A stretch of 64,000 nucleotides of DNA from Desulfobacterales bacterium (GTDB lineage: Bacteria > Desulfobacterota > UBA8473), in NCBI GenBank assembly GCA_016209225.1, contig JACQWO010000015.1, positions 83,588 to 147,587 of the forward strand, written 5' to 3'. A model generated the notes under the pieces. The model was not told where the DNA came from, did not search any database, and worked only from the letters and a program-made list of their open reading frames with translations. Made by a program: the position numbers and the translations under genes. Below are positions 7,306 through 49,028 of this stretch, in pieces; positions within the stretch are counted from its first letter, which is position 1; every line of letters begins with the position of its first letter.

Positions 7306-7333
7306 TATCTATCCTCCTCAATAATTTATGTCT

Positions 7334-7408
7334 GCTTTCAGTTAATGTTTCCAGTACAAACAAAGCCCGATAGGGTTTGATAATATTTCGTTTGTGCTGT
7401 GTTAGCGG
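7334..7408 (-). repeat. attC-like recombination site (imperfect hairpin)
   Basis: Minus strand GCTAACACAGCACAAACGAAA...CAAACCCTATCGGGCTTTGTTTGTACTGGAAACATTAACTGAAAGC resembles the 44189 site; stem arms CAGCACAAAC/GTTTGTACTG. Confidence 0.55.
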
Positions 7409-7415
7409 AAGTACC

Positions 7416-7616
7416 CTATGCAGTTTCGTATTGAAGGACTTTTAACTGCTCCGGTTTTATTCTTGCACTCAGATTGAGCATTTCAACACCTACTACTTTG
7501 CCGTCTGCATTAAAGTCCAGAATTACGCCAGGTTGGACTTCCTCAGATTCTACGATGGATGCCTCATCCAATCGGAAATACAGGGCATCGTTTCCTTTGT
7601 CCACTTTTAACCTCAT
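7416..7616 (-). CDS. DUF2283 domain protein (putative antitoxin)
   Basis: DKGNDALYFRLDEASIVESEEVQPGVILDFNADGKVVGVEMLNLS is the DUF2283 pattern. Confidence 0.85.
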   Translation of the reverse strand: MRLKVDKGNDALYFRLDEASIVESEEVQPGVILDFNADGKVVGVEMLNLSARIKPEQLKVLQYETA

Positions 7617-7858
7617 TTCTGCCTCCTTACCCTACGGTCAAAAAATACTGTAACTACTTTCTTCGGTGAAACATGGGGGTTTACAACCAGATGGAGAATC
7701 CGTCCCTCATGTTCAGTAATACCTTTTAAATAATGAATATTGTTGTCCTCTCCTATATTTTTCCAATCGGAATTATCAATGGTTCGCCATACCCATTCCT
7801 CTAGAATCTCACGCTCTTTCAACATGTCTTGAGTATGTGCAGATAATTCATAATCCAT
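7613..7858 (-). CDS. DUF4258 domain protein (putative RelE-like toxin)
   Basis: 81 aa, YELSAHTQDMLKEREILEEWVWRTI...GRILHLVVNPHVSPKKVVTVFFDRR; overlaps the DUF2283 gene by 4 bp. Confidence 0.8.
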   Translation of the reverse strand: MDYELSAHTQDMLKEREILEEWVWRTIDNSDWKNIGEDNNIHYLKGITEHEGRILHLVVNPHVSPKKVVTVFFDRRVRRQK

Positions 7859-7892
7859 AATTAAAATCCTAAACCTATTTTACAAAATATAG

Positions 7893-7930
7893 GGCGTTTC
7901 AGATAATGTTCCAAGCGTATCTGAAACGCC
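7893..7930. repeat. 13-bp perfect inverted repeat (collapsed attC-like R boxes)
   Basis: GGCGTTTCAGATA (7893-7905) / TATCTGAAACGCC (7918-7930), 12-nt loop; arms match the TTCAGATAAC/GTTATCTGAA boxes at 44.2-45.4 kb. Confidence 0.6.
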
Positions 7931-8057
7931 AGGACACCTCTCTGTCTGACTTTTTTGCTACTTACCACATCCCTCTTTCATGTCTATACTATACAGTGGA
8001 CTTCTGATTTTGCCCAAGCTCTTTGTACTTACATGGTTATAAATCAACATCGTTCCA

Positions 8058-38591: not shown

Positions 38592-39485
38592 ATGACCATG
38601 GTGAAACTGCTCGATGAATTCCTGAACTACCTTGTAGTTGAGAGAGGATTATCTAAAAACACCCTGGAATCATACAGCAGAGACTTAAACAAATACCTTG
38701 ATTATCTGGAAAAAAACAAGATCGCAGAGATTAAAGAGACCTCCGGCTCTCATATAATGGCTTTCATTTATACACTAAAGCAAAAGGGGCTGGCAACCAA
38801 GACCACTGCAAGAAACCTGGTGGCTATCAAGATGTTTTATAAGTTCCTGGTTAACGAGAATTATCTTGAGAAAAACCCTGCTATAAGAATTGACTCTCCA
38901 AAGACATGGGTCAAATTGCCAAATACCCTGGCACTAAACGAAGTGGAGATGTTGCTTGATCAACCCGATACGAAAAGCCCTTTAGGCATGAGGGATTCTG
39001 CTATGCTAGAACTGCTGTATGCCACCGGATTAAGGGTTTCTGAGCTCGTTTCTCTGTCCCTAAATAGTATTAACCTTGAGGTCGGTTATATTATTGCCTT
39101 TGGAAAGGGCAATAAGGAAAGAATCGTTCCCATAGGAAATCAGGCAACAGAAAAGGTGAGGGAGTATCTGGTATCCGCCAGAAAAAAACTACTTAAAAGC
39201 TCAAGCAGTCCTTCTCTTTTTGTAAATCGTTCAGGGAATTCTCTATCCCGTCAGGGTTTTTGGAAGATTATCAAAAAGTATACCTTTAAGGCGGGAATAA
39301 AGAAGAATATAACACCTCACACCTTAAGGCATTCTTTTGCCACTCATCTCCTGGAAAGGGGAGCAGACCTGCGTTCAGTGCAGACTATGCTGGGTCATGT
39401 TGATATCTCTACCACCCAGATATATACCCATGTGACAAGAGAAAGATTGAAGAAGCTCCATAATCAATTACATCCCAGGGCCTAG
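38592..39485 (+). CDS. Tyrosine recombinase XerC/XerD
   Basis: ATGLRVSELVSL, TPHTLRHSFATHLLERGADLRSVQTMLGHVDISTTQIYTHV. Confidence 0.95.
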   Translation: MTMVKLLDEFLNYLVVERGLSKNTLESYSRDLNKYLDYLEKNKIAEIKETSGSHIMAFIYTLKQKGLATKTTARNLVAIKMFYKFLVNENYLEKNPAIRIDSPKTWVKLPNTLALNEVEMLLDQPDTKSPLGMRDSAMLELLYATGLRVSELVSLSLNSINLEVGYIIAFGKGNKERIVPIGNQATEKVREYLVSARKKLLKSSSSPSLFVNRSGNSLSRQGFWKIIKKYTFKAGIKKNITPHTLRHSFATHLLERGADLRSVQTMLGHVDISTTQIYTHVTRERLKKLHNQLHPRA

Positions 39486-43521: not shown

Positions 43522-43679
43522 TATTGCTAATTCTTAAAGGAAAGAAGGATAGTCTATAGGGTGTATAGACGACTATGTCGTCTACACCACTAAAATTTGA
43601 GAAAGGGCGACATTGTCGTCTGTGAACAAGTTAGGCGACATGTTTCTTCAGAAAAGGTTTAAAGGATTGGTATTATAAA

Positions 43680-43991
43680 ATGAGATGGTTCAAGGATTTA
43701 TATGACAGGAATGTGCGTCTTACTGATGAGCGCCTTGAACATTTTGAAAATGACCATCCAGAAATGGCTGGTCAAATTGACAAGGTTGCAGAAACATTAT
43801 CACAGCCGGAGATTGTTGTCAGATCGAAGACAGATTCAGAAGCGGAACTTTTTTATCGCCATTACCTGACGACTCCTATTGGTGAGAAATATATATGTGT
43901 TGTCGTGAAGGTCAAGGTTGATGATGTTTTTATACTGACGGCATATTTTACGGACGCTATCAAAAAAGGAGATGCGTTATGGGAGAAGTAA
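43680..43991 (+). CDS. PBECR2-like nuclease-fold protein (putative toxin)
   Basis: VRLTDERLEHFENDHPEMAGQIDKVAETLSQPEIVVRSKTDSEAELFYRHY...YICVVVKVKVDDVFILTAYFTD. Confidence 0.6.
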   Translation: MRWFKDLYDRNVRLTDERLEHFENDHPEMAGQIDKVAETLSQPEIVVRSKTDSEAELFYRHYLTTPIGEKYICVVVKVKVDDVFILTAYFTDAIKKGDALWEK

Positions 43992-44194
43992 TAAAAGTTT
44001 GGTATGATAAAGAAGGGGATTATCTTGAAGTTCTCTTTGAACGAAAGACAGGGTATTTCAAAGAGACAGAAAATGACGCAGTGATGGAAAAAGTAGATAA
44101 TGAAGGAAATGTTATTGGATTTTCCATATTGAAAGTCAGTGCGTTAAAAAAGCAAAGACCTCTATCAATTGAACTGAAGAAACACGTCGCCTAA
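43979..44194 (+). CDS. DUF2283 domain protein (putative antitoxin)
   Basis: KVWYDKEGDYLEVLFERKTGYFKETENDAVMEKVDNEGNVIGFSILKVS; overlaps the preceding ORF. Confidence 0.85.
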   Translation: MGEVIKVWYDKEGDYLEVLFERKTGYFKETENDAVMEKVDNEGNVIGFSILKVSALKKQRPLSIELKKHVA

Positions 44195-44253
44195 CACAGT
44201 GCAAACAGCTCACGCCCAAACCGCAAGGCTTTGTTTGCACTTGAACGTTATCT
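44189..44253 (+). repeat. attC-like site (best copy)
   Basis: R'' GCCTAAC (RYYYAAC), 9-bp stem GTGCAAACA (44199-44207)/TGTTTGCAC (44232-44240), R' GTTATCT. Confidence 0.7.
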
Positions 44254-44331
44254 GAAAGCCGCCGTCAGTATATACTGTTGGAAAATCAAGAAACATGGTA
44301 CGATTGTTTAAAATGTCAAAAGGGGGGCATT

Positions 44332-44557
44332 GTGAAACAATTTAAGATTGTTGTAAAAGCTTTTGAGATATTGGGTTTTCATATGGTTCGTGAAAGGGAG
44401 CATATCTACTATGGAACGAGAAAATCCAGACGGCAGCAAAACCCATCTGACCATGCCGCCAAATCATCCTAAAATAAAGGCTTCTACCTTAAGGACAATC
44501 TGCACGCAAGCGGGCATTTCAAGAGACGATTTCATAAAAGCATACGAAAAGACATGA
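44332..44557 (+). pseudogene. HicA family toxin with apparent frameshift
   Basis: Frame 1 VKQFKIVVKAFEILGFHMVREREHI, frame 2 STMERENPDGSKTHLTMPPNHPKIKASTLRTICTQAGISRDDFIKAYEKT; break near 44404-44414. Confidence 0.75.
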
Positions 44558-44568
44558 CGGCAGCCTTC

Positions 44569-44634
44569 AGATAACAGCTGCCGAAAAAACTGACGTCCAA
44601 ACCCCAAGGGTTTCTTTTCCGCCTTGAACAATAC
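44569..44634 (+). repeat. attC-like site, degenerate 3' end
   Basis: AGATAAC...ACGTCCAAACCCCAAGGGTTTCTTTTCCGCCTTGAACAATACC parallels ACGCCCAAACCGCAAGGCTTTGTTTGCACTTGAACGTTATC. Confidence 0.55.
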
Positions 44635-44843
44635 CCAAAATGCCGCTCCGCTTGAACTCCCACAGGTGTTGACAGAAGCAATAGCTAAAAGAGTTGGATA
44701 TATTAATAAATCCCAGGAATATATATAGAGTAAGACGGTGTTCACATTTTGGCTAACGGACTCATAAAAATGCTTTGCCTTTACATTCTTTTGTGGTATC
44801 ATTTTAAGTATCAAATATAATATTAGAAAGGATGTGAATTGTA

Positions 44844-45128
44844 ATGTCTCTCATTATTTCTGAAGACATAAAATCCGTTTCAGAGCTAAAAAAGAAGACG
44901 AACGAAATCTTCAGGCAAATGCACCATACCGGCAGACCTATTATCGTTACTGTCAATGGAAAACCTGATGCTGTTTTGCTGGATGTAGAGGTTTTTGAAA
45001 AGAAATTGAGATCACTAAATCTTGGTGTGCTGTTGGCTGAGGCGGAAAACGATGTTAGAGAAGACCGTACCAGAGATGCACGAGATTTTATGAAGGAGTT
45101 TCAGGAGGGTGCAAAAGTATCGGGTTGA
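44844..45128 (+). CDS. Phd/YefM family antitoxin
   Basis: SVSELKKKTNEIFRQMHHTGRPIIVTVNGKPDAVLLDVEVFE. Confidence 0.88.
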   Translation: MSLIISEDIKSVSELKKKTNEIFRQMHHTGRPIIVTVNGKPDAVLLDVEVFEKKLRSLNLGVLLAEAENDVREDRTRDARDFMKEFQEGAKVSG

Positions 45129-45420
45129 GATCACGAAAGTTGCCGAATCAGATATACGGGAAATCTTCCAATATATTGCATCTGACAATGAGATCTCGGC
45201 AATAAAATTGATAAGCGAAATAGTGCTACAAATTGATTCATTAGAACAATTTCCTTTAAGGTGCCCGGTTATCCCCGAATCTCGCGAACTAGGAAGAGAA
45301 TATCGGCATATTATCTATGGGAATTACAGAACCATCTTTAGAATTGATGGATCCAGGGTGATTATTATGCGGGTTATTCACGGTGCGCAGTTGCTGAGCT
45401 TAGAAATATTCGAAAAATAG
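45109..45420 (+). CDS. RelE/ParE family toxin
   Basis: YRVEITKVAESDIREIFQYIASDNEISA...LGREYRHIIYGNYRTIFRIDGSRVIIMRVIHGAQ. Confidence 0.9.
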   Translation: MQKYRVEITKVAESDIREIFQYIASDNEISAIKLISEIVLQIDSLEQFPLRCPVIPESRELGREYRHIIYGNYRTIFRIDGSRVIIMRVIHGAQLLSLEIFEK

Positions 45421-45480
45421 AACAACGGAATGAGCCCTACTTCAGATAACAAGCGCTCAGGTTTTATTGGAGGAATTTTT

Positions 45481-45540
45481 AAGGGCTGACTGATTAAGGG
45501 AGTAGACCATGCCGTACAATGTTAAACTCAAGATATTGAG
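45481..45540 (+). pseudogene. Duplicated scpA start fragment
   Basis: GACTGATTAAGGGAGTAGACCATGCCGTACAATGTTAAACTCAAGATATTGAG versus scpA start at 48270-48320. Confidence 0.9.
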
Positions 45541-48226: not shown

Positions 48227-48287
48227 ATATTCATCCGTCAGTTCATTTCAGCGTGAATTTTCAGGGCGGACTGATTAATGGTGTACT

Positions 48288-49028
48288 ATGCCGTACAATG
48301 TTAAACTCAAGGTATTCGAGGGGCCTTTAGACCTCTTGCTACACCTGATTAAAAAAAATGAAGTGGACATATATGACATACCCATTGCCTCCATAACCGC
48401 ACAGTACCTTGAATACCTGGACATTATGAAGACCTTAAACCTGGATATTGCCGGTGAATTTCTCGTAATGGCAGCAACCCTCATGCATATCAAATCCAGG
48501 ATGCTCCTGCCTCCAGCAGAAGATGAAAGAGAAGAGTTTGAAAGAGAAGAAGATCCACGGGCTGAGCTGGCAAGACGGCTCATAGAATATCAGAGATTCA
48601 AAGATACCGCTGATAAACTGATGAGCTATGAAATCTTAAATAGAGATGTATTTACCAGGGGTTTAGCCGGTGAGGCTTCAGAAGAAAATGAAAAAGACCT
48701 GAACGAAATAAGCATTATTGAATTGATAGAGGCATTTAAAAGTGTTTTAAAAGAAGAACCTCCGGAAAAATTTTTCTATGTTGCCATTGAAAAGATGTCA
48801 GTTAATGACAAGATAACAGAGATCATTGAAAGAATGAAGCACACAGGAAACATTGTTTTTCAGTCTCTATTCACCGGGATCGCCGACAAACACGAAATAA
48901 TACTTACCTTCCTCGCCTTGCTTGAGCTAATAAGGCTTAAGGTGGTAAGGGTTATACAGGCAACACCCTTTGGAACCATTAGAATCTGTCCCATAAATTT
49001 ACAACTTCCAAAAGGACTCAGTGTCTGA
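48288..49028 (+). CDS. scpA: Segregation and condensation protein A
   Basis: YNVKLKVFEGPLDLLLHLIKKNEVDIYDIPIASITAQYLEYL; MAATLMHIKSRMLLP. Confidence 0.95.
   Translation: MPYNVKLKVFEGPLDLLLHLIKKNEVDIYDIPIASITAQYLEYLDIMKTLNLDIAGEFLVMAATLMHIKSRMLLPPAEDEREEFEREEDPRAELARRLIEYQRFKDTADKLMSYEILNRDVFTRGLAGEASEENEKDLNEISIIELIEAFKSVLKEEPPEKFFYVAIEKMSVNDKITEIIERMKHTGNIVFQSLFTGIADKHEIILTFLALLELIRLKVVRVIQATPFGTIRICPINLQLPKGLSV

Follow-up and report, generated by a model that had tools for sequence, protein, structure and literature searches.

Sequence comparisons indicated that the segment running from trpS to the phd/parE-scpA junction, within the 64-kb stretch of DNA analysed here (the window), is very probably a decayed chromosomal integron whose integrase gene was deleted, most likely one of the type without an I2 helix (I2-less) found at sister loci. 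IntegronFinder 2.0 defines clusters of attC lacking an integrase (CALINs) as groups of two or more attC sites with no integrase gene in the vicinity, and these are proposed to be degraded integrons (PMC9024848). With its two predicted attC sites and no integrase gene close by, the window locus is a CALIN; it differs from those described in keeping an attI and in the non-canonical integrase type of its sister loci. It is more than a CALIN, namely a putative once-whole integron that has since lost its integrase gene: because an attI is retained at 43559-43633, we read the locus as a decayed integron and not merely as cassettes inserted at a secondary site. An earlier note on this DNA had described a CALIN-like, integrase-less array. 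The sequences it quoted were all verified at their positions, and its integrase-less cassettes agree with a held-out attC model and with homologous cassettes that break at G^TT; its proposed site at 45440 is not an attC, and it had missed both the attI and a second relic.

The attC sites were detected with a covariance model (R1) trained on twelve sites, none of them from the window; a local consensus came from sites beside integrase genes in the same genome and sister species. Stem positions covary. Both sites anticipated by the earlier note were found on the plus strand, attC1 at 44189-44253 (57.2 bits, E 5e-12) and attC2 at 44569-44636 (43.6 bits, E 2e-8). The R' box of attC2 is altered to AATACCC, and the site is also matched by an integrase-linked attC of genome G002. 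R1 located a third attC, previously overlooked, at 7340-7407 (minus strand, 47.3 bits), and the next-best match in the 64-kb window reached 10.4 bits. The whole genome contains 18 R1 matches and G003 contains 15, and 10 of the 29 genomes searched have any. A strict search for GTTRRRY/RYYYAAC returned no attC in the window because the R boxes here depart from the consensus, and an Rfam search of the window matched only a tRNA.

The complementarity of the cassette ends extended further than first claimed: GTTAGGCGACATGTTTCTTCAG (43630-43651) is complementary to 44174-44195 at 21 of 22 bases, and 44247-44267 to 44555-44575 at 19 of 21. These are the two GTT...AAC pairs of the real sequence with at least 19/21 complementary bases; 200 dinucleotide shuffles produced none, the best reaching 17/21. 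Folding of the bottom strand as DNA was modest for attC1 alone (z -1.7). The third box, CTTCAGATAAC (45440-45450, plus strand), is present in the sequence, gave neither an R1 match nor a fold and is directly followed by the scpA leader. A G^TT at 45518 was rejected as the right-hand cassette edge, being part of a scpA start that is duplicated. The scpA leader and start occur at both 45477-45537 and 48258-48316, with the ferredoxin/2-oxoacid oxidoreductase operon between them; in G003, phd/parE leads directly to scpA.

The attI lies on the plus strand at 43559-43633, with its crossover between G43630 and T43631. It was recognised by a second model (R2), built from eight sites directly 3' of integrase genes with the window excluded (50.8 bits, E 3.7e-9); the next-best match in the window scored 14 bits. 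The wider homology, from 43537 to 43634, is 77-78% identical to the 3' flanks of integrase genes, and the roughly 100 bases preceding cassette 1 match sequence directly 3' of such genes. For eight attI with a defined integrase end, an I2-less gene, or the 3' fragment of one, ends 21-77 bp before the site. Inspected by eye, the trpS junctions of G003 and G002 seem to keep half an attI and an attI tail, neither of which is reported by R2.

Cassette 1 (43631-44247, plus strand) runs from TT through attC1 to G. Together with its attC it recurs in other surroundings in L155 (93.2% identity over window 43630-44250) and L161 (94.5% over 43623-44245), and the whole-cassette match in another genome (93%) spans G^TT to G^TT. 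Its coding part (74%) is also found in G004:C19, beginning at the same G^TT behind a different attC-like site. Because the TrpS of the L161 genome is only 62% identical to that of the window, cassette 1 appears to have moved horizontally, unless the L161 contig was misbinned; the carrier genomes are draft assemblies, and we make no claim of transfer across phyla. The cassette encodes a PBECR2-like protein (43680-43991, plus strand; PF18810, 25.1 bits, just under the cut-off of 27.1) and a DUF2283 protein (43979-44194, plus strand; PF10049, 31.7 bits, over the cut-off), the cargo named in the earlier note. No relatives of PBECR2 were found in viral contigs.

Cassette 2 (44248-44630, plus strand) shares its starting G^TT with hicBA homologues in C92 of the same genome, G002:C7 and G001:C196, which sit behind a different attC. 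Alignment to these full hicBA cassettes showed that the window copy has lost the greater part of hicB along with the beginning of hicA. The remaining HicA part (44363-44557, plus strand; PF07927, 22.8 bits, under the cut-off), previously taken for a frameshifted HicA, belongs to a hicBA cassette that carries an internal deletion and not a simple frameshift. The phd/parE pair (44844-45420, plus strand; PF02604 and PF05016), also listed as array cargo, is present and common to G003. Its status as a third cassette was unsupported: beyond the window, the pair turned up only in G003, at the corresponding locus, and in G001, as a piece of 111 bp.

Comparison of the trpS-scpA junction in relatives revealed a different cassette in G003, with a GmrSD-type gene and an attC that matches attC1 over 59 bases at 88% identity. 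This GmrSD/HEC-06-like gene (G003:C24; L106:1618-3273, minus strand) is defence-type cargo. The trpS site of G002 was considered as a cleanly empty counterpart and rejected, there being no clean G^TT footprint. The clean presence and absence at G^TT sought at this junction was found instead at a second relic (7306-8057, minus strand), between the methylmalonyl-CoA mutase and enoyl-CoA hydratase genes. This locus contains a cassette with DUF4258 and DUF2283 genes (7416-7858, minus strand; PF14076 and PF10049), the attC at 7340-7407 and the 3' relic of an integrase gene (7949-8045, minus strand), which matches the 3' end of the C54 integrase of the same genome at 82% over 98 bp. In G003:C143, an empty attI lies between the same two genes. 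Homology between the filled and empty loci resumes at ^TT (window ACA^TTAACTGAAAGCAGACATAAATTATTGAGG, G003 GAG^TTGTTTGAAATCAGATATAATTATTGAGG).

In agreement with the earlier note, no integron integrase gene was found in the 64-kb window, which contains only an ordinary XerD at 38592-39485 (398 bits to TIGR02225) and the 3' relic of about 97 bp, belonging to the second locus. At the trpS locus itself, the attI and a short tail alone are left. The attI, the attC sites, the exchange of cassettes at G^TT, as marked by homologue edges and the empty attI of the second locus, and the loss of the integrase are evident from sequence, by comparison among draft assemblies. The search for a distant intI found integrases elsewhere in the genome, including a canonical IntI on contig C19.

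The integrase genes adjoining attI at sister loci encode tyrosine recombinases and are oriented toward the cassettes. The integrase genes of Treponema chromosomal integrons also read toward their cassettes, and in T. phagedenis intI was lost while attC sites remain (PMC3607928); the likeness is one of organisation, and the sister-locus recombinase here differs in lacking I2. According to published descriptions, only integron integrases possess the I2 helix (PMC9176274, PMC7790495), and its presence serves to filter what is accepted as an integron integrase (PMC9176274). Where the catalytic region is complete (C54 of the same genome, G002:C18, G003:C84 and two in G003:C218), the stretch that carries I2 is missing. 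In these five copies KDR and HxLRH lie 59 residues apart; the distance was 100 for each canonical IntI measured, and 65 for XerD. The five come from three genomes within a single genus, and the remaining copies are fragments. An integrase of G003:C218 is 393 aa long (L048:9278-10459). Two long copies scored 216.6 and 235.7 bits with TIGR02249, under its cut-off of 265, and 235 and 234 bits with NF040815 (XerA), over its cut-off of 220. A HARP-like N-terminal domain reached 25.6 bits (cut-off 25) in the C54 copy and stayed under the cut-off in two others; the motif is visible in G003:C84 as well. In the G002:C18 and C54 frames, no ordinary start codon precedes the HARP-like part. Weak support came from a structure predicted at a mean pLDDT of 71, which had no extra helix at the place of I2; its best fold match was the integron integrase 2A3V, with XerA second. 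No relatives of the I2-less integrase were found in viral contigs.

The I2-less recombinase appears to branch as sister to canonical IntI: in a tree built without the I2 stretch and with a Xer outgroup, IntI (100/99) and the I2-less clade (97/94) were sisters. It resembles canonical IntI (TIGR02249, class 1 IntI1, 2A3V) in its conserved catalytic residues, SPLD C-terminus and linkage to attI and attC, and differs in its shorter spacing, sub-threshold TIGR02249 scores and HARP-like N-terminus. With XerA and XerD it shares a similar inter-motif length and a passing NF040815 score; unlike them, it groups with IntI and is linked to attI/attC arrays. Because the canonical IntI domain is absent, standard integrase profiles would probably miss the integrase type paired with the window attI.

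Cassette ends were compared in cassettes of the genus and relatives with both ends set by neighbouring attI or attC matches. The ends are complementary to about position 20-21, with one conserved mismatch at position 11. This position never pairs on the top strand, where the start has A or C and the end C; it is mostly A/C, so that G faces T on the bottom strand. Once near-duplicates were removed, leaving 16 cassettes, positions 12-20 matched in 92 of 144 cases, compared with 49.6 +/- 6.4 under permutation (none of 20,000 permutations was as high). In the predicted circle form, the bottom strand folded better in all 16 cassettes. The extended stem was rejected as a general integron feature, since pairing in 11 class 1 cassettes stops near position 12.

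Collectively, these observations indicate an ancestral order of integrase, attI and cassettes, all in the same direction. Cassettes were gained and lost through recombination at G^TT, where homologues end and where a sister species has a different cassette. Deletion of the integrase gene left the attI, a short tail and two cassettes, with the PBECR2-like and DUF2283 pair intact and hicBA broken. The window array was probably made by an I2-less integrase. To judge from linkage, this would be a tyrosine recombinase that has a HARP-like N-terminus, lacks the region of the I2 helix and is sister to canonical IntI, and its recombination of attI and attC is putative on the same grounds. Its substrates were probably cassette ends in folded form; the attC stem of the excised circle is predicted to reach about 13 bp beyond the R box and to pair better on the bottom strand. 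The array would now be static, unless an integrase encoded at another place in the genome acts on it.

The I2 helix is regarded as the innovation through which a recombinase of double strands became able to work on single strands in folded form (PMC7790495). We tentatively propose, with somewhat more doubt than conviction, that the I2-less loci could form a separate natural integron class: its integrase, sister to all canonical IntI and with a HARP-like N-terminus, would never have had I2, and cassettes would be recognised instead through the extended attC stem of the circle form (some 20 bp long, one position being conserved as G.T on the bottom and A.C on the top strand), a living pre-I2 stage of integron evolution. 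Searches of an open-access library gave no report of integrons without an I2 helix, which does not prove their absence. If such a family exists, the order of events in the origin of integrons becomes directly testable, and some attC clusters labelled "integrase-less" are parts of integrons overlooked by current profiles. Alternatively, the I2-less integrase may be a canonical IntI that secondarily lost I2. The usable sequences number only five, all from a single genus, and sampling may bias the deep placement, but IntI formed one clade excluding the I2-less proteins in trees both with and without the I2 region, and we consider secondary loss unlikely.

The locus might also be a plain CALIN, in which a canonical IntI left the cassettes behind or inserted them in trans and the I2-less recombinase is a neighbour without a role. 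The CALIN definition applies, and the genome does encode canonical IntI (on C19, for example, at 377 bits) that could act in trans. Other points that weigh against a decayed integron are the missing integrase gene, whose type is read from sister loci, the altered R' of attC2 and the lack of a clean G^TT at the G002 trpS site. Nevertheless, the locus retains an attI, I2-less genes or fragments precede attI of the window type at eight loci, and a search of 161 kb covering 17 canonical IntI loci found no attI or attC of this type, which makes a plain CALIN improbable. Chance inverted repeats or terminators among ordinary toxin-antitoxin genes would fit the modest single-sequence folding of the sites, but are refuted by the held-out models, the shuffles and the homologue breakpoints and deserve practically no credence. 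We therefore retain the reading as a decayed integron.

Two further elements were observed. On C19 of the same genome, a canonical IntI (L013:8813-10255) has a weak second IntI N-terminal match upstream in the same frame (L013:7034-7119), and a different attC lies on its other side, forming a second, separate integron system. In the window, a non-coding, MITE-like element of about 133 bp with inverted ends GATACCCAAAATG / CATTTTGGGTATC is located at the attC2 crossover (44630-44763, plus strand). It has four homologues, in C48 and C95 of the same genome, G002:C18 and G003:C153. Because all five copies sit at an attI or attC crossover, the data suggest a MITE that targets integron sites.
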